A stretch of DNA of 45,707 nucleotides from Methanospirillum stamsii (GTDB lineage Archaea > Halobacteriota > Methanomicrobia > Methanomicrobiales > Methanospirillaceae). Positions within the stretch are counted from its first letter, which is position 1, and each line of letters opens with the position of its first letter. The translations under genes and the position numbers were made by a program. Below the pieces are notes generated by a model that saw only the letters and a program-made list of their open reading frames with translations, had not been told where the DNA came from and did no database searches. This document shows, piece after piece, positions 35,839 to 45,490 of this stretch. The stretch lies in assembly GCF_003173335.1 (NCBI RefSeq), contig NZ_QGMZ01000022.1, positions 1-45,707 of the forward strand, given 5' to 3'.

Positions 35839-36240
35839 ATGTCAAAGACTGGAATCCTTCTTGTTGGACATGGAAGTAAAAAGGAGTACAACCAATCCCT
35901 GATTACCAAAACCGCAGCGATTATCGCAGAAAAACATCCGGATTATATTGTTCGTTGCGGATTTATGGAATTTAATGAGCCAACAATTAAAGCATCACTT
36001 GATATGTTTAAAAATGATGATATCAACAGTATCGCAGTAGTTCCTCTCTTTCTCGCACGTGGTGTGCACATTGACGAAGATATTCCCGGGATATTAGGTC
36101 TTTCACAAGGTCAGAAGAGAGGAATATTCTCTCTTGCAAACAAAGAAATTCCACTTGTTTATGCAGATCCAATCGGACCAAATCCGCTTCTCGCAGATCT
36201 TATGATGGAAAATGCGAAGGCGGCTCTTGATACGATCTAA
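35839..36240 (+). CDS. cfbA: Sirohydrochlorin nickelochelatase CfbA
   Basis: CfbA inserts Ni2+ into sirohydrochlorin, the first committed step to coenzyme F430. The 133-residue protein is the short single-domain archaeal form. The two metal-ligand histidines are H11 (ILLVGHGSK) and H77 (FLARGVHIDEDIP), and the family block GFMEFNEPTIKASL is present. Short CfbA/CbiXS proteins work as symmetric homodimers and can also load cobalt. The last codon region overlaps the start of cfbE by one base, so the operon is tightly coupled. The intact reading frame and linked cfb genes make nickel the likely metal here. Confidence 0.95.
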   Translation: MSKTGILLVGHGSKKEYNQSLITKTAAIIAEKHPDYIVRCGFMEFNEPTIKASLDMFKNDDINSIAVVPLFLARGVHIDEDIPGILGLSQGQKRGIFSLANKEIPLVYADPIGPNPLLADLMMENAKAALDTI

Positions 36241-37454
36241 TGCGAATTCTTGTTCTTGATACTATTCATGGAGGGAAGGTGATTGCTGATCACCTCATTC
36301 TTTCCGGACATGATGTTGACATGGTTGATGTGTATCGCCATGCTGAAGGAATTACTGAAGAACTGGCTCTTACCCGGAAGTATGATCTGGTTACTACGCC
36401 AGTTCATCTTGACCCGGATTATCATCTCCTTAGAAATATTACTTCTCCGGTAATTTCTCATCATGAAATGGTTCGCTCAGTTTTCCCTCATAGTAACATT
36501 CCTCAAATTATTGAAATTACCGGAAAACGAGGAAAATCTACAACCGCTACTGCTCTGGCATTTTTACTCTCCGGCCCTGGAGTTCTTCAGACTTCTTCTG
36601 GTCTTTATTCCTACCCGGATAAACAAAAATTGGATAGATTCTCTATTACTCCCGCATCAGTTCTCTCAGCGTATTCTTTTAAACCAGCAGATGGCTGGAT
36701 GATTGCAGAAATTTCTCTTGGTTTTTGTGGTATAGGATCCTTAGGAATTCTCACTTCCGGAGATGATTATCCGGTAGCCGGGGGAAAAAGAAGTGCATTA
36801 GATCTCAAAAAAGAATCATCACATCTTTTCTCTGTTGTTCTTGTTCCTCCGGAAATAGAACTTCTTCATGATGGATGTATCTCTGTATCAGATCTTGTTG
36901 AAATTCACGGAAAAACGGCTTCATATCAATATCAGAACATCAAGGGGACTTTTTCGAATCCTCTTTTATTACTCTCCGGATATAAAACTCCCTTAATGCT
37001 GGCCGCTGGAGCGGCTCTGCTTATGGGTATTGATCCTGCTGCTCTTTCCTTTTTTACAGCTATATCTGGCAGGTTGGATACTCAATCCGATCATGGATTT
37101 ACGATTATTGACAATTCCAATAGTGGGACCTGTTATGATACCTCCTGTGATGCCTATCGTTATGGTAAAGAAATTGCTGGAGATGTTCCAATTACTCTTA
37201 TTATTGGACAGGAATCTCAATCCGTATGTGAAAATTTTGATACAAGTGAGATAATTTCCGCAATATTAGAGATTAAACCTCATGATGTTATGCTTATTCC
37301 CGGCGACAAGCGGATTAAATGCGATACCATCAGAATGATATGTAATAAGCAGAGTATTGGTTTTTCAATCTTTGAAACACCAGAAGAAGCATATGTAAAT
37401 GCAAAAACTCTGAATAATCCCCTTATCCTGTTTTCTGTGAAACGGTGGAAATGA
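36240..37454 (+). CDS. cfbE: Coenzyme F430 synthase CfbE (Mur ligase-like)
   Basis: The enzyme uses ATP to activate a propionate side chain of 15,17(3)-seco-F430 and close the carbocyclic ring F, the last step to F430. The 404-residue protein has a Mur-ligase P-loop, ITGKRGKSTTATALAF (about residues 92-107), and the later Mur-type ISGRLDTQSDHGFTIIDNSN block (about 279-298), the C-terminal ligase domain. The N-terminal domain is Rossmann-like (LDTIHGGKVIADHLILSGHD). It starts one base within cfbA's stop and overlaps cfbD by ten bases. Confidence 0.92.
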   Translation: MRILVLDTIHGGKVIADHLILSGHDVDMVDVYRHAEGITEELALTRKYDLVTTPVHLDPDYHLLRNITSPVISHHEMVRSVFPHSNIPQIIEITGKRGKSTTATALAFLLSGPGVLQTSSGLYSYPDKQKLDRFSITPASVLSAYSFKPADGWMIAEISLGFCGIGSLGILTSGDDYPVAGGKRSALDLKKESSHLFSVVLVPPEIELLHDGCISVSDLVEIHGKTASYQYQNIKGTFSNPLLLLSGYKTPLMLAAGAALLMGIDPAALSFFTAISGRLDTQSDHGFTIIDNSNSGTCYDTSCDAYRYGKEIAGDVPITLIIGQESQSVCENFDTSEIISAILEIKPHDVMLIPGDKRIKCDTIRMICNKQSIGFSIFETPEEAYVNAKTLNNPLILFSVKRWK

Positions 37455-38518
37455 TGAAATACGTACAACCACGTCCAAGTTCGATTGTTGCTGCCTTATA
37501 TACTGCTCGTGATCTTGAAGTTGATGTAGCGGTTTTGCATGGACCGTCCGGATGCTCTTTTAAGCATGCCCGTCTTCTGGAGGAAGATGGGATGAGAGTT
37601 CTTACGACCTCTCTTGCAGATAATGAATTTGTATTTGGAGGTCAGGCAAGACTTGAGGAGGTTATCCAGTATGCAGAAGAAAAATTCTCTCCTGACCGGA
37701 TGGCCATAATTGGTACTTGTGTTTCAATGATCATCGGAGAAGATTTGCAGGCAGCTGTTGATAATTCCGGAATCAGTACTGAAACCATTGCTGTTGATAT
37801 CCATGCAGGCTTTACCGAAAATATTGACGGAGTAATTGCAGCACTCAAGCCAGCTGCAGAGATCGGATGGATATCAACTGATGAATTGTCACGTCAACAG
37901 GAACTTTTAAAAGCGGCCAATCAGGTAGAAAGACTGAGAGGAGCTGCAATAAAGGAATATATTGAACCTTCAAGAGGTGACTTAAAACATCTGGTTGCTT
38001 CAAGATTGAAGGAATTAATTGAAGACGGAAAGAAGGGTGTTGCAATTTTGAATGCAAAAAAAGAAACCGCTTATATGTTCAGTGATGCCCTGCTTGCATT
38101 ATTTGAGAGTTCACCTGATGCAGATATCACTTATTCAGCGAACCTTGAACTCCGGGGTCTTCCAAAGGTTCGGCGGGATTCGGAAAGAATTGCAGCAGAC
38201 CTGGCTGAAAAGAATCTTCCATTTATTAAACAAGGTGCTCTTGATGAATATGGTGCCCTTGGCGAAAAACTTGGGGCCTGGATGCAATCCCAAAATCCGG
38301 ATTTTGCTTTGATTAGTGGAGTTCCTCATGCAATTCCTCCGGAATATACTGATGGGATAGAATGTTTTTCCATAACGAACGGTCCCAGGCAGGTAGCTCC
38401 ACTCAAGAGCCTGGGTCATGAACATGTTGTTGTGGAAATTGATCTGCACCCAAAGACACTCGGTGTCCGCAATATTGTAGAATCAGAGTTTGGTGCCGTC
38501 TTGAGGAGTTTAACATGA
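37445..38518 (+). CDS. cfbD: Ni-sirohydrochlorin a,c-diamide reductive cyclase, catalytic subunit CfbD
   Basis: CfbD is a nitrogenase NifD-like homodimeric protein that, with its ATP-dependent reductase CfbC, performs the multi-electron reduction and lactam-ring formation giving seco-F430. The 357-residue protein shows the NifD-like block PSGCSFKHARLLEEDG (Cys about 37, cluster ligand candidate), ADNEFVFGGQARLEEVIQYA and AIIGTCVSMIIGEDLQAA (Cys about 91). Length is typical. CfbC is not in this window and must be encoded elsewhere. The gene overlaps cfbE by ten bases and cfbB by four. Confidence 0.94.
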   Translation: MEMMKYVQPRPSSIVAALYTARDLEVDVAVLHGPSGCSFKHARLLEEDGMRVLTTSLADNEFVFGGQARLEEVIQYAEEKFSPDRMAIIGTCVSMIIGEDLQAAVDNSGISTETIAVDIHAGFTENIDGVIAALKPAAEIGWISTDELSRQQELLKAANQVERLRGAAIKEYIEPSRGDLKHLVASRLKELIEDGKKGVAILNAKKETAYMFSDALLALFESSPDADITYSANLELRGLPKVRRDSERIAADLAEKNLPFIKQGALDEYGALGEKLGAWMQSQNPDFALISGVPHAIPPEYTDGIECFSITNGPRQVAPLKSLGHEHVVVEIDLHPKTLGVRNIVESEFGAVLRSLT

Positions 38519-39909
38519 AGACATTCCTGATTTCCGGTGATCGTTCGGGATCAGGTAAAACCAGTATTACACTTGCAATAGCAGCAGCATTATCAAAAAA
38601 CCGTAATGTTCAGACTTTTAAAGTTGGAATGGATTATATTGATCCGTCATATCTTACCGGAGTTACCGGACGGCCCTGCCGGAACTTGGACTCATTTGTG
38701 ATGAACCGGGAAGAATTGATGGCTGTTTTTAATCATGCATGCATCGGGGCAGATATCGCCATTATAGAAGGGGTCAGGGGACTTTTCGAGGGTGCTGAAA
38801 GTGTTGACGATATTGGTAGTACAGCATCAATTGCCAAGTTTCTGAATGTCCCGGTCATTGTCGTTATTGATGCACGGAGTATTACCCGGAGTGCTGCAGC
38901 TCTTCTGATGGGGTTCATGAAATTTGATCCGGAGGTAAAGATTGCCGGTGTTATTCTCAATAATGTCAGAGGAGAAAAACATGTCAGAAAAGCAACCGAA
39001 GCAATTCAGCATTATTGTAATATTCCTGTTATCGGAGCGATTCCCCGGGTAGATAATCTGGATCTTACCATGCGGCATCTTGGTCTTGTTCCTTTTGAAG
39101 AAGGGTTGAAAGATAAACCATTCCTGGATAGGGTCGATTCCATTGTAAAAATGATTTGTAGTTATCTGGATCTCGATACTCTCCTTTCTCTTTCTTCTGA
39201 AATAACTAATCCGACATCGGTTCCTGAACTTTTTCAGGGGATTTCTACCAAAAATGGATATAATATAGCTATTGCCCGGGATGAAGCTTTTAATTTTTAT
39301 TATGCTGATTTATTCTCCCTGATTGAATCAAGAGGTTTTTCTCTTTCATTTTTTTCTCCGGTGAATGGTTCTTTACCAGATGCAGATGGGTATATCCTGG
39401 GCGGTGGTTATCCCGAGTATTTTGGAAAAGAATTATCTGAAAATTCTTCAATGATGGAAGATTTAAAGAGGGTATGTGATGGAAATATTCCAATTCTTGC
39501 AGAATGCGGGGGTCTTATGTACCTTTGTCGTCAGATTAAAGTACTCAATGAATTTTCAGGTCTTCATACTGGAGATACTTTTCAAATGGCTGGTGTGCTC
39601 CCTGCAACCTGTACAATTCCAAAAAAACGCATTGTCACCTATGTAAAAGGAAACACAACTTCTGCCTGTCCGTTTGGGAGTGAAAAAAAATCCCCGGTCC
39701 TTGGGCATGCGTTTCATTACTCTACGGTCTATCCGGATAATGGGGTATCTTATGCGTATGATCTGGAAAGGGGATTTGGTATAGATGACAAACATGATGG
39801 ACTAATCATGAACAATGTTGTCGGATCATATACTCATCTTCATCCAGTACCTTCCCGAAATTTTCTTTTTTCTTTTTTATCTGCTTGTGCAGATGATAGT
39901 ATTATATAA
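38515..39909 (+). CDS. cfbB: Ni-sirohydrochlorin a,c-diamide synthase CfbB
   Basis: A glutamine-dependent amidotransferase that converts the a and c acetate groups of Ni-sirohydrochlorin to amides using ATP. The 464-residue protein has an N-terminal CobQ/CbiA-type domain with P-loop LISGDRSGSGKTSIT (G8-T16) and VGMDYIDPSYLTGVTGRPC. The C-terminal class-I glutaminase domain has the nucleophile Cys about 331 in ILAECGGLMYL and His about 398 in GHAFHYS. It is homologous to CbiA of cobalamin synthesis; operon position with cfbA, cfbE and cfbD decides the CfbB call. It overlaps cfbD by four bases and is the last gene of the operon. Confidence 0.93.
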   Translation: MKTFLISGDRSGSGKTSITLAIAAALSKNRNVQTFKVGMDYIDPSYLTGVTGRPCRNLDSFVMNREELMAVFNHACIGADIAIIEGVRGLFEGAESVDDIGSTASIAKFLNVPVIVVIDARSITRSAAALLMGFMKFDPEVKIAGVILNNVRGEKHVRKATEAIQHYCNIPVIGAIPRVDNLDLTMRHLGLVPFEEGLKDKPFLDRVDSIVKMICSYLDLDTLLSLSSEITNPTSVPELFQGISTKNGYNIAIARDEAFNFYYADLFSLIESRGFSLSFFSPVNGSLPDADGYILGGGYPEYFGKELSENSSMMEDLKRVCDGNIPILAECGGLMYLCRQIKVLNEFSGLHTGDTFQMAGVLPATCTIPKKRIVTYVKGNTTSACPFGSEKKSPVLGHAFHYSTVYPDNGVSYAYDLERGFGIDDKHDGLIMNNVVGSYTHLHPVPSRNFLFSFLSACADDSII

Positions 39910-39910
39910 A

Positions 39911-39930
39911 AAAGAAAGAATTATTTCTTT
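39911..39930 (+). terminator. Possible AT-rich hairpin terminator after the cfb operon
   Basis: AAAGAAA at 39911-39917 pairs with TTTCTTT at 39924-39930 across a six-base loop, immediately after the cfbB stop. The stem is AT-only apart from one C-G pair, so it is weak; position is the main support. Confidence 0.3.
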
Positions 39931-39987
39931 ATATACTCCCTGATAAGAAAGATAATCCTTTTGAGAAAAGGAATCAGATACCTTTCT

Positions 39988-40854
39988 ATGCAGATTTATA
40001 TCGATGGGAAATATTATCCCAAAGAGGAGGCAAAAGTATCGGTTTTTGACCATGGTTTTCTCTATGGTGATGGTGTTTTTGAAGGTATCCGGGCATATTC
40101 AGGAAGAATATTCAGGTTGGATGAACATCTTGACCGCCTCTATGATTCTGCAAAAACAATCGATCTTAAGGCTTCTATTACAAAGGACGAGATGGCTAAA
40201 GCTATCATCGAAACCTGTAAGAAAAATAATCTGAAGGATGCATATATCCGGCCAATTATCAGTAGAGGTGTCGGCGATCTTGGACTTGACCCCCGGAAAT
40301 GTGCAAAATCCAGTGTTTTTATTATCGCTACGGAATGGGGCGCTATGTATGGTGATCTTTATGAAAAAGGTTTGAAGGCAATCACCGTATCAGTCCGGAG
40401 AAATCCGGCAGAAGCTCTTCCGCCAAATGTGAAAAGTCTTAATTATCTGAATAATATAATGGCAAAGATAGAAGCGAATTATAAAGGCGGAGATGAAGCA
40501 ATTTTCTTTGATACCAATGGATATGTTTGTGAAGGGTCCGGAGATAATATCTTTGTAATTAAGAATGGAGTTATTATTACTCCACCAACTTTGAATAATC
40601 TGCGGGGTATTACCCGGATGGTGGCATTAGAAATTGCCAATTCTCTGGGAATCACTGTTCTTGAACGTAACATGGGATATTATGATCTTTATTCCGCTGA
40701 TGAAGTATTTGTTACAGGAACAGCCGCTGAAATCGCTCCAATTACCTGGATTGATGGACGTGATATTGGGACAGGAAAACCAGGACCTATTACGCGTCAA
40801 TGTATGGAACAGTTCAAAATTGTTGTCCAGAAAGAAGGAACACCTATTGTTTAG
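39988..40854 (+). CDS. ilvE: Branched-chain amino acid aminotransferase
   Basis: A fold-type IV PLP enzyme that transaminates Leu, Ile and Val, here 288 residues. Blocks: [56 protein letters not shown], the PLP Lys in [30 protein letters not shown] and [15 protein letters not shown]. The upstream in-frame TTG at 39961 would add nine residues (RKGIRYLS) not typical of the family, so I chose ATG at 39988 with [10 protein letters not shown]. It stands alone between the cfb operon and a tRNA gene. Confidence 0.93.
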
Positions 40855-40882: not shown

Positions 40883-40906
40883 TAGAGTAGACCTTTAGAG
40901 GCACCT

Positions 40907-40981
<75 letters not shown>

Positions 40982-41040
40982 TATAAACTATTAGTCCAAT
41001 TGTCTGTACCCTTTTTATGGACTAATTCAAACTTCTGACC

Positions 41041-42150
41041 ATGCCAGAAGCGATACTACTCTCAGATAATGATCGATTCAGTGGTTTAAAACCTGAGTAT
41101 TAAAATCGGTCTATCAATAACACTCTCATATAAAATAGAATCTTATCAGTCGATCTATTTCTTATAACCGCTTTCGAAGCAGAGAAACGGATATCTGCTG
41201 GCATTTCTCCCAAACACTCCTTAAAGATCGTATCAAGCCTGGTCACGATCCGGCGTTTTATCCCTCAATATTGTGATCTCACGATCCCATCTTTGTATAC
41301 TAGTGTTGACCGGATCAATAATGCCCCTTCGAGATGTGGCACTCCATTTTCCCGAAACACCTGGATAGATCTCGGCATAATTCTGAAACAGTTTGTACTT
41401 TGGCTGTTTGACAGTGAAGTAATCACCATGCCTGAGAAAAAAGTTCGCTCGATAAAAATACCAAAGAAACTTCCATCCCATAAAACATCTGAACTCCTCA
41501 CCGGTTACGAGATCTAGGCACTCATCTTAGTCTGCATGACACCCCGGGATAGAACCTTACTCACGACCATGTACGAAGGGGGGGGTTTCGTGTTGGAGAG
41601 ATCGGAGAGATGCGATGGGGTCACCTCAAAATGAATAATATCAGCATAGTCGTGAATGTGAGATTCAAAAGATGTAACCTCGATATATCTGTCTGGTCAT
41701 GAGAAAGAAACATCTCATCAAGTGGAAAAGTGAAAAACAGGAGAGTTCACTGATAATGCCTTGCTCTTCATCAACGAACGGAGAAGACAGATGACTCATG
41801 CAGCAGTAACTAGACAATTAACCCAACTTTCCATAAGGGTTGATATAAAAAGCATGTTTTCACCCATATCTCCCGATATTCCCGTATTTCACATTTGATT
41901 CTACAGGATATGAACGAATCAGTAATAAAACTCATGATCTGCGAACCGATTGACTCCCGGATGTTCATCAACTACGTAGATCTGACCGGAATGGATATTG
42001 ACCGGGAGGTTTTTAAACTCTATGGAATTGAAGCACTCAAAGATCAGTTTATCGGGGAATAACCTGAGCCCCGAGTCTGCCTGAAATGTCGGGAACCAAA
42101 TGGTTCGAATTTCTTTAGCCATGCATCATTACGGGGTGTAAGCCGAGCCA
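41041..42150 (+). pseudogene. Decayed tyrosine recombinase (integrase) next to tRNA-Glu
   Basis: Reading all three plus frames recovers an integrase end to end. The possible N-terminus is MPEAILLSDNDRFSGLKPEY with a stop at 41101. A core-binding domain follows (EKRISAGISPKHSLKIVSSL; DLGIILKQFVLWLFDSEVIT; MPEKKVRSIKIPKKLPSHKT), then a TAG near 41515. The catalytic domain begins PRDRTLLTTMYEGG and, after a run of eight G at 41578-41585, resumes as FRVGEIGEMRWGHLKMNN. Further pieces are FINERRRQMTHAAVTRQLTQ, HISRYSRISHLILQDMNES (the H-x-x-R box) and DSRMFINYVDLTGMDIDREV (the nucleophile Tyr). A degraded C-terminal zinc ribbon (CLKC, later Cys lost) ends it. At least three frameshifts and two stops make it non-functional. 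The style matches chromosomal integrases of Methanomicrobiales. Confidence 0.85.
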
Positions 42151-42282: not shown

Positions 42283-43740
42283 ATGTCTTTTCAATTTGAT
42301 GATCCATTATCTGAGTTAGTGGTTAAATTTACAAAAAGAGAAATTACCGAAGATGAATTCATCAAACTTAGAAATCAAATACACCCTATATCTCCTAGAA
42401 AAGCTTCGAATAAAAGTAACATTAAAAATCACTCTGAAATACAGTTTAATCAAAATTGTTATCAATGTGGAAAGTCAGTCTCAAATGATAGGGCCAATGT
42501 TTGTCAATATTGTAAAGGATGGTTTTGTAATGCTCATATAGAAAGACATAATCACTTCTGCATAAAAACAACTCCGAGTTCTGACGAAGGCAAAATCTAC
42601 GATACAATCAAGGATAAAGGTCGGGTAAAACAGGATTATAATTCAACAATCTATACATATGATTGTCATTTTTGCGGTAACAGTACCACCCGAAATGGTA
42701 TAATATATCACATTGGAGAAAAATGGTGTGGTAACTGTATTCTTCCAATTAGGAGTAAGGGAAAAACTAATAATCAAAATCGAGATAATTCCAAAATTAG
42801 CTATACTGTTTGTGAATATTGTGGGAAACGCTGGGAAAAATCTAAAATTAAAATTCATAATAATAAACAATGGTGTGGGATATGTCCAATTTTTAGTCCT
42901 GCAGAAATTGAATATCACCAACATATAGAATATCAAAAAAAATTACAAGATAAAATCAAAAAGTCCGATTCCTATGAATTTATTAAGGGCTTTAAGAAGA
43001 AATATCAATCCTATAAACGTAATGAAGAATGTTTTAAAACATTAAAGAAATTATTATCAACTAAAGGATATGATTTTGATGATGACATACTTGCTACATT
43101 AATCCGAGAGTCGGATTTTGATATATTTTGTGATGCCTTTTCTCAAACTAAAACCATAGATGACATCTTAAAAATTTTTTTAACATTTGAGGAAACAACA
43201 CAGAATAAAAAATTCCTAAAAAAAATATTAGGCGATAAACATAATTTTCGAGATAACATTGACTTACTAATTCAGAACTATAATTCAAGAGAAAAAGTCA
43301 AACAAGAAAAAGAGGATTTAGATAAATTCGCTGCAGGGTTATTAAAACAAGAACCATTTATTAAATATTTAGATAATACTTCAGGGCATGAATTTGAGGA
43401 GTTGTTGGGTAAAAAATTAAATGAAGAAGGCTTTTCCGTGACCGTTACAAAAGGATCAAGAGATCACGGGGCTGATATCATTATTTCTAAAAATAATGAT
43501 ACCTTCATTATTCAGTGTAAAAGATACAAAAAGGGAACCAATGTTAGTAATAAGGCTGTTCAGGAGATAGTAGGAGCATTAAAAGTATACAATGCAAAAA
43601 AAGGGGTGGTAATTACGAATCGGAGTTATACTAATCCTGCAAGGGAATTAGCTTTAATAAATGATGTTAAACTAATTGAACGGAGTCATCTCATTGAAAT
43701 CGAAAACGGGAAAACATTTACATCTTTATTATTCTCATGA
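42283..43740 (+). CDS. SHOCT-AN1-zinc finger-Mrr nuclease, putative type IV-like defence endonuclease
   Basis: A 485-residue intact protein with an unusual order of domains. Residues 8-33 resemble a SHOCT segment (LVVKFTKREITEDEFIKLRN). Residues 59-93 form an AN1-type zinc finger: C59-x2-C62, C74-x2-C77, C82, H85, H91-x-C93. Two four-Cys zinc units follow: C128/C131/C149/C152 and C177/C180/C198/C201, both ending W-C-G-x-C. A helical, Lys-rich linker (about 205-360) leads to an Mrr-type PD-(D/E)xK domain (about 365-470): GHEFEELLGKKL, SRDHGADIII (D398) and FIIQCKRYKKG (Q411, K413). Mrr domains cut DNA, often modified DNA. It stands alone between a dead integrase and an IS21 remnant, which fits an accessory defence gene. 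The activity is predicted only. Confidence 0.82.
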   Translation: MSFQFDDPLSELVVKFTKREITEDEFIKLRNQIHPISPRKASNKSNIKNHSEIQFNQNCYQCGKSVSNDRANVCQYCKGWFCNAHIERHNHFCIKTTPSSDEGKIYDTIKDKGRVKQDYNSTIYTYDCHFCGNSTTRNGIIYHIGEKWCGNCILPIRSKGKTNNQNRDNSKISYTVCEYCGKRWEKSKIKIHNNKQWCGICPIFSPAEIEYHQHIEYQKKLQDKIKKSDSYEFIKGFKKKYQSYKRNEECFKTLKKLLSTKGYDFDDDILATLIRESDFDIFCDAFSQTKTIDDILKIFLTFEETTQNKKFLKKILGDKHNFRDNIDLLIQNYNSREKVKQEKEDLDKFAAGLLKQEPFIKYLDNTSGHEFEELLGKKLNEEGFSVTVTKGSRDHGADIIISKNNDTFIIQCKRYKKGTNVSNKAVQEIVGALKVYNAKKGVVITNRSYTNPARELALINDVKLIERSHLIEIENGKTFTSLLFS

Positions 43741-43910: not shown

Positions 43911-44000
43911 GGGTGGTGGCTTCGCCCCCTCCCTTCAACCCACCCCTGATTAGGATAGGCTCGGTGGGATGGACAAGCATCCCACCTTCGCAAAGAGAAA
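43911..44000. repeat. GC-rich ~90 bp repeat, copy 1
   Basis: This GC-rich block stands out from the AT-rich surroundings. It starts GGGTGGTGGCTTCGCCCCCT and contains a hairpin: GGTGGGATG at 43963-43971 pairs with CATCCCACC at 43978-43986 around a six-base loop. A second copy in the same orientation lies at 45395-45490, on the other side of the istB/istA remnant. Confidence 0.75.
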
Positions 44001-44008
44001 ATATCAGT

Positions 44009-44728
44009 TCAGGTATTCTTTGCCCTTCTTCGGTAACTGTGACCATTCATATTGACTATCATTGCCTGGTGAGTAATCCTGTCAAGAAGAGCAACAGTCA
44101 GAGTTTTATCATGAAACACTTTAATCCATTCAGAAAAAGGTAAATTGGTGGTAATAACCGTACTAAGTACCTCATATCGTGCAGCCAATATCTGAAATAA
44201 TAACTCAGTACCTTCCAGATCAAAGGTTATGTACCCAAGTTCATCGAGGATTAGAAGATCAATCCTTTTAAGCTGCCTCATCAATAACGTAAATCTTCCT
44301 GCTTTTTTTGCTTCCAGTAGCTCATTTACCAGACCTGCAGCAGTTTTAAAGTTCACTTTGAAATTATGCTCACAGGCACATACCCCAGTTGCAATAGCTA
44401 AGTGTGTCTTTCCAGTTCCTGAATTTCCAATAAAGACCACATTTTTCGTTTCCTGAATAAAATCCAGCGATTTCAGATCCGGCAGAAACATTCTCCCATC
44501 ATCTGGTAAATCCTGTACTGACAACTCTTCGAATCTTTTCTGGGTAGGAAATCCCGCTTGTTTGATGGTTCGGATATGCCGATTGGTCATCCTGATATTC
44601 AATTCAAACTGACAAGCTTTCATCAGAACCGAAATTATCTCCGGATCTGATCCACATTGTTCCTGAACCGACTGGTAAACACCGGCAATATGGAGTTGTT
44701 TGCACATTTCTTCCAGTTCATGTATCAT
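44009..44728 (-). CDS. istB: IS21-family ATP-binding protein IstB
   Basis: The 239-residue AAA+ helper ATPase of IS21 transposition has Walker A in VVFIGNSGTGKTHLAIATGV, Walker B in IDLLILDELGYITFDLEG, and the IstB-type C-terminus (ALLDRITHQAMIVNMNGHSY). I chose ATG 44726-44728 (MIHELEEMCKQLHI), with GGAG eight bases upstream; it overlaps the istA stop as ATGA, the arrangement usual for IS21 elements. The frame is complete. Its transposase partner is truncated, so the element is unlikely to move by itself. Confidence 0.92.
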   Translation of the reverse strand: MIHELEEMCKQLHIAGVYQSVQEQCGSDPEIISVLMKACQFELNIRMTNRHIRTIKQAGFPTQKRFEELSVQDLPDDGRMFLPDLKSLDFIQETKNVVFIGNSGTGKTHLAIATGVCACEHNFKVNFKTAAGLVNELLEAKKAGRFTLLMRQLKRIDLLILDELGYITFDLEGTELLFQILAARYEVLSTVITTNLPFSEWIKVFHDKTLTVALLDRITHQAMIVNMNGHSYRRRAKNT

Positions 44729-45345
44729 GCTACACACTCCACCACACAATCATATACGGTCAGATCCGGTTCCTGTACATTTATCAAATCATATACCTCT
44801 AACGATTCAACAGCCTGAACGACGTCTTTATTCAAAACCATTCGAATGGTGGCACATTCAGGTGAAACATGAATCTTCTGTAACTTCTCTATTACAGCAA
44901 TTAACTCATCCAAAGAGCATTCTTCCGTCAGGCTCAGTATCTGAATAAAATCTAATGGCCTGTCCAGGTAATGGGACTTATAAAGATTCTGAAGAGTATC
45001 AGGAGCTTGTTGAATTACCTTGGAGTGCATGAGTGATCCTGGTTTTCGTTCAAATGTCTTCAGGAAGTGACAAATATTGAGAGAATACTGTCCTTTTCCA
45101 TGTAATCTTTTGTGTGAGGCAATCAGCTCTGGACCGGATACAAGATCGATTCGGTCCTGATAAATCTTCAGCAGAATGCGTTTTTGACGATAACTATCAG
45201 GGACAGAGTAATAATTGCGATCAAAGGACACAAACGAGTATTTGGATATTTTTGCTGGTTTAGTCAGTACATTTGAATACTCAAGTGAAGGAAGGGGAAG
45301 CAAGGAATTCTGTTCATCTTTCAAGGATTCGATGGGAGTCTTGGC
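44725..45345 (-). pseudogene. istA: C-terminal remnant of IS21-family transposase IstA
   Basis: The frame is open from 45345 down to the stop at 44725, about 206 codons. It starts AKTPIESLKDEQNSLLPLPS and runs through RNYYSVPDSYRQKRILLKIY and SHKRLHGKGQYSLNICHFLK to VYDCVVECVA. This is the region after the DDE core of IstA, including the Mu-transposase-like C-terminal beta barrel. The helix-turn-helix and catalytic DDE domains (about 300 residues) are missing; a TGA (45346-45348) and unrelated DNA precede it. The deletion endpoint is near 45350-45390, close to repeat copy 2. It cannot encode an active transposase. Confidence 0.85.
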
Positions 45346-45394: not shown

Positions 45395-45490
45395 GGGTGG
45401 GGGTGCTCCGCCCCCCTCCCTTGAACCCAACCCCCAGGCAATGATAGGCTCGGTGGGATGGGCGAGCATCCCACCTTCGCGAGAGATTAA
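45395..45490. repeat. GC-rich ~90 bp repeat, copy 2
   Basis: The sequence is the same as copy 1 with small differences. GGTGGGATG at 45452-45460 pairs with CATCCCACC at 45467-45475; the loop reads GGCGAG instead of GACAAG. TAGGCTCGGTGGGATGG and CATCCCACCTTCGC are shared with copy 1. The two copies lie about 1.5 kb apart in direct orientation around the IS21 remnant. Confidence 0.75.

Follow-up and report, generated by a model that had tools for sequence, protein, structure and literature searches.

A composite gene among dead mobile genes

What kind of protein is encoded by a gene that joins putative zinc-binding modules to a restriction-type nuclease domain, and why does it lie intact next to decayed mobile genes? 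One locus of Methanospirillum stamsii raises this question, near the end of the window (the whole stretch of 45,707 nucleotides that was analysed). The first-pass annotation had claimed a complete gene, and the interval does coincide exactly with an unbroken frame of 485 codons, starting with ATG and free of internal stops (Table 1). The combination of a SHOCT-like hairpin, an AN1-type finger, a double zinc unit and an Mrr domain is real, intact and so far unique, and it is of a known modular type.

Table 1. Features of the locus, with positions in the window and residues of the 485-aa protein.
Feature	Position	Strand	Remark
tRNA-Glu(ttc)	40906..40982	+	synteny with sister species stops right after
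Tyrosine recombinase (integrase) pseudogene	41056..42107	+	several in-frame stops, frameshifts
Whole gene: SHOCT-like hairpin / AN1-type finger / two zinc units / helical linker / Mrr_cat	42283..43740	+	
SHOCT-like two-helix hairpin, residues 7-33	42301..42381	+	AF2 helices; no match to PF09851
AN1-type C6H2 zinc finger, residues 59-93	42457..42561	+	ligand spacing, archaeal AN1 profile
Zinc unit 1, residues 128-152, C-x2-C-G-x10-H-x4-W-C-G-x-C	42664..42738	+	
Zinc unit 2, residues 177-201, C-x2-C-G-x10-H-x4-W-C-G-x-C	42811..42885	+	beta hairpins predicted
Helical linker, residues 206-354	42898..43344	+	no family match; low-confidence helices
Mrr_cat PD-(D/E)xK nuclease domain, residues 363-472	43369..43698	+	catalytic E372, D398, Q411, K413
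IS21 istB, 246-aa open frame	44009..44749	-	
IS21 istA, C-terminal 199 aa only, 5'-truncated	44725..45324	-	~516 aa in intact relative

The nuclease domain

The Pfam family Mrr_cat (PF04471) matches the C-terminal domain with 103.2 bits, against a curated cut-off of 21 (E 1.2e-29). Across 44 aligned homologues, residues G368, E372, D394, G396, D398, Q411 and K413 are invariant, so that the initial assignment of D398 and Q411-x-K413 as catalytic residues is right. Catalytic loss across the family, which had been held to count against a nuclease reading, was not found: the residues are kept, in homologues of the nuclease domain alone, none of them full-length. The structure model of this domain (pLDDT 92-98) has a PD-(D/E)xK fold, and it aligns with AF1548 (1y88, Z 14.9), AspBHI (Z 12.0) and MspJI (Z 10.8).

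PADLOC cross-matches the protein exclusively to defence nucleases of Mrr type (ZorD, PDC-S02 and mREase_IV); these matches concern the nuclease third only, with no full-length match to any defence-system component. Matches to PF22722 pointed to an inactive NACHT-associated REase, and this candidate was dropped, the catalytic residues being intact. Upstream of the nuclease domain, in residues 1-355, Pfam detects no Mrr_N, SRA or winged-helix reader, the front of the model being of low confidence.

The zinc modules and the N-terminal hairpin

The AN1-type finger presents its ligands in the canonical C6H2 order (C59-x2-C62-x11-C74-x2-C77-x4-C82-x2-H85-x5-H91-x-C93). Moreover, Phe81 precedes the fifth cysteine, which is a feature of AN1 fingers (PMC5035049). 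It scores 14.6-19.6 bits against Pfam PF01428, under the 27.9-bit cut-off. Against a profile built from 42 archaeal AN1 fingers it reaches 24.4 bits, with a large term for composition bias; when the protein was shuffled 20,000 times, no shuffle came up to this value and the best scored 14.9. Of the textbook AN1 finger initially described, the eight ligands with their exact spacing were recovered but not the Pfam membership, and residues 59-93 are best called AN1-type, as judged from the ligands and the archaeal profile.

The two W-C-G-x-C units also held up. Unit 1 (C128, C131, H143, W148, C149 and C152) and unit 2 (C177, C180, H192, W197, C198 and C201) are nearly identical and constitute one repeated module: none of 10,000 shuffles aligns as well, and 0.00 chance occurrences of the corresponding DNA pattern are expected in the window. 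The beta hairpins of unit 2 are modelled with a pLDDT of about 67-77. When residues 1-261 were folded as a single sequence the result was poor (pLDDT 39.8), and the fold of the zinc units therefore stays putative.

At the N-terminus, AF2 predicts helices 8-17 and 23-33 with a pLDDT of about 93-95, and the region contains an 'ITEDEF' motif. The SHOCT profile (PF09851) does not match residues 1-51, nor does it match this locus in a scan of the whole genome, even at E 10. The SHOCT-like segment proposed at first thus keeps its two-helix hairpin and its motif but not a profile match; going by the model, it may be termed SHOCT-like and no member of the SHOCT profile. Elsewhere in the same genome, a 563-aa frame (G000:C78:187897-188307) shows up to five tandem SHOCT profile matches. 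For the linker, no family was found in Pfam.

Relatives of the modules and of the whole protein

AN1 fingers are known otherwise as partners of membrane proteases and in protein quality control. The first-pass annotation had described them as mostly eukaryotic or archaeal modules; they are not exotic here, being present in 254 of the 393 sampled genomes of the phylum. Membrane (rhomboid-like) segments are attached to the finger in every one of the best 30 matches. The finger studied here is most like that of small AN1-membrane proteins from its own genus; those of sister species share its C-x11-C spacing and are 40-49% identical to it over the finger. These archaeal AN1-membrane or AN1-rhomboid-like proteins nevertheless pair the finger with membrane segments and not with a nuclease, and they possess a conserved H-R-L-P motif that is absent from our finger. 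Three consecutive AN1-type fingers lie in another archaeal frame, of 261 aa (L023).

We then searched for the whole architecture. It was not found in the genomes of the genus, family, order and sampled phylum, in plasmids and phages or, with limited sensitivity in both cases, in viral contigs and 85,000 species genomes; the scans of species genomes and viral contigs rest on short peptide patterns, and only part of the field is visible to them. No full-length copy occurs in 11 sister genomes. Likewise, no second example was returned by residues 1-356 against the 393 phylum genomes, plasmids and phages, by scanning genome_contigs and viral_contigs for exact peptides, or by residues 107-356 against 232 genomes of the order. 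The last search gave only weak matches, rejected as a deoxyhypusine-synthase-like protein (as read from its sequence) and broken or out-of-frame stretches. In viral contigs, what the DNA patterns for one or two zinc units picked out were frames open by chance, plus a few zinc proteins unrelated to ours. Residues 100-355 have no homologue, so conservation of the zinc units could not be observed. In the literature, we found no archaeal protein reported to combine Mrr with AN1 or SHOCT. The claim that this domain order had not been described is supported, with neither a second example nor a paper found.

The nuclease domain, for its part, has many relatives among clostridial, plasmid and phage Mrr proteins, with up to 47-48% identity. 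Mrr relatives passed in the 85,000 species genomes numbered 387; the best 80 of them match in the nuclease third only, as do 21 relatives from viral contigs, and an AN1 finger is found in none of these 80 or 21. Seven Mrr domains, once aligned, proved too divergent for the alignment to serve as a search query. In the tree of nuclease domains, the protein is unplaced, on a long branch, but outside a well supported clade of 16 archaeal Mrr domains of the same order, to which most Mrr domains of Methanomicrobiales belong.

Mrr nucleases swap their front domains. The single-domain Mrr_cat restriction endonucleases of bacteria (membrane-anchored) or phages have a nuclease domain 35-48% identical to ours, with the same E, D and QxK residues. 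Their front ends vary (transmembrane helix, winged helix, zinc ribbon with or without TM2, one zinc unit) but never comprise an AN1 finger with two W-C-G-x-C units. One such protein, in Roseburia phage Jekyll (L081), associates Mrr_cat with a zinc ribbon and a TM2-like membrane part; its neighbours are an integrase and a toxin-antitoxin pair. The only archaeal protein among the best 80 of the 387 relatives and the viral ones comes from a Woesearchaeota genome (L231:4600-6339, 579 aa). It is the closest archaeal relative of our nuclease domain: its Mrr_cat, which shares 44% identity with ours, comes after a single C4 zinc unit and a long linker. An integrase is found less than 3 kb away, and a Polbeta nucleotidyltransferase is nearby. 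It differs in having neither AN1 finger nor tandem units, and its front parts are not significantly similar to ours; a similarity of the middle parts was tested and rejected as not significant. MspJI and AspBHI also have a C-terminal Mrr_cat fold behind an N-terminal reader, but their reader is SRA-like, whereas ours has zinc fingers in this place, and Pfam detects no SRA domain in it.

Genomic setting and possible origins

Cofactor and amino-acid genes, followed by tRNA-Glu, occupy the left flank, and the sister loci diverge directly past this tRNA in all five compared. The recombinase pseudogene has an intact counterpart in a sister species, a Phage_integrase protein of 402 aa, to which it aligns. 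With this decayed gene upstream and a 5'-truncated istA downstream, the presence of dead mobile genes around the nuclease gene was confirmed. The G+C content of the latter is 29.8%, versus 40.5% in the housekeeping genes on the left side (36240-40854). We looked for a repeat of the tRNA end as the mark of an element's far edge, and found none. The contig stops at 45707, and the right flank beyond is lost. The IS21 istA/istB remnant is flanked by a 49-base direct repeat (86%; window positions 43943-43991 and 45432-45480), each copy of which contains a short palindrome, and short pieces resembling it recur where other contigs of this genome end.

Since no full-length copy exists in the sister genomes, the nuclease gene is an accessory gene, within the remains of integrated elements. 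Because it lies between tRNA-Glu with a dead recombinase and a truncated IS21 element at the contig end, it is probably relict mobile-element cargo. Intact copies of the recombinase family are numerous, occurring in 73 of 108 related genomes, and downstream of most of them are replication-type genes (for instance for a UvrD helicase or a Rep ORF2/G2P protein) or genes of unknown type. At 2 of about 28 readable loci, the recombinase is followed instead by an FRG-domain gene or an AbiEi/AbiEii pair: in a sister genome (G004, L295) the gene directly after it is a 413-aa FRG-domain gene matching the candidate defence family PDC-S15, and in another genome (G059, L300) the recombinase is followed by the toxin-antitoxin pair. 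These neighbours are compatible with cargo, without being proof of defence.

A serious, if unlikely, alternative is that the nuclease serves, or served, the integrated plasmid or provirus itself, by excluding rivals, degrading host DNA or assisting maturation, rather than defending the host. The adjacent dead integrase, the close Mrr domains of phages, proviruses and plasmids, and the replication-type genes that follow the recombinase in several relatives would all fit such a role. However, the element is dead while the gene is still open, and the Mrr relatives of phages and proviruses have quite different N-termini.

The first-pass annotation had also seen in the intact gene the mark of a selected defence gene. 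The gene is indeed intact beside a badly decayed recombinase, but no defence island was seen: the genes to the left are housekeeping ones, and up to the contig end the locus shows neither a partner nor a methylase or other defence neighbour. An intact gene next to a decayed recombinase fits selection, and also a later arrival. It could be a recent or unselected passenger, i.e. a chance shuffle of domains, open by luck and functionless now, as the lack of a second copy in the searched collections, the relict surroundings and the AT-richness of the gene might suggest. We judge this improbable: the eight AN1 ligands, the four-cysteine units and the nuclease residues are all intact next to a recombinase with many lesions, and our Poisson estimate, which assumes equal ages, is that about ten lesions would be expected if the gene were as old as the recombinase. 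Finally, a nuclease of DNA repair or genome maintenance under zinc-finger control, like archaeal Hjc, EndoMS or NucS, is very improbable, for although the modelled fold resembles Hjc and EndoMS and the Hjc profile matches weakly, the Pfam match to Mrr_cat is much better and the gene is absent from all sister genomes, unlike housekeeping repair genes.

A proposed zinc-finger-targeted nuclease

We consider that the gene encodes a single-chain DNA endonuclease of the Mrr-class PD-(D/E)xK type, in which zinc fingers replace the usual N-terminal recognition domain and provide targeting, a reading to which we give a probability of about 0.5. Its role is probably one of defence, as we infer from the evidence above. 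AspBHI and MspJI divide the work between two domains: recognition of a modified base falls to a separate N-terminal domain, and cleavage to the C-terminal Mrr domain (PMC3874153). For SHOCT domains, which also occur next to zinc ribbons, an oligomerising role has been discussed (PMC3581485); AN1 fingers have been discussed as modules that bind proteins and are linked to the proteasome (PMC5035049). By analogy with the MspJI/AspBHI layout and with these SHOCT and AN1 precedents, the fingers most likely pick the target, DNA or protein, and paired nuclease domains would cut DNA.

In such a mechanism, the paired treble-clef-like units would bind either the target DNA or a partner linked to infection. 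The AN1 finger would bind a protein, perhaps a component of the host or of the invader, and so gate or place the nuclease; the SHOCT-like hairpin may help to oligomerise. The dimerised C-terminal domains would then cut foreign or modified DNA. The gene would have arrived as cargo of an integrated element and been kept as a defence gene, acting like a modular Type IV/Mrr restriction nuclease. As to its history, the most economical account is that a mobile nuclease cassette was joined to archaeal fingers. A bolder version, quite improbable in our view, is a new kind of archaeal restriction factor in which the AN1 finger senses a viral or host protein and unleashes the Mrr nuclease, aimed by the pair of zinc units; DNA cleavage would then be triggered by a protein and not by a modification.

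For now, the weight of the finding is limited, with a single instance and no partners or conserved context. If the zinc-finger-targeted reading is true, an AN1 finger with tandem zinc units joins the known front ends of Mrr nucleases. An archaeal protein-binding finger would then have been joined to a mobile nuclease cassette, which would offer methanogens a route to protein-sensing restriction.
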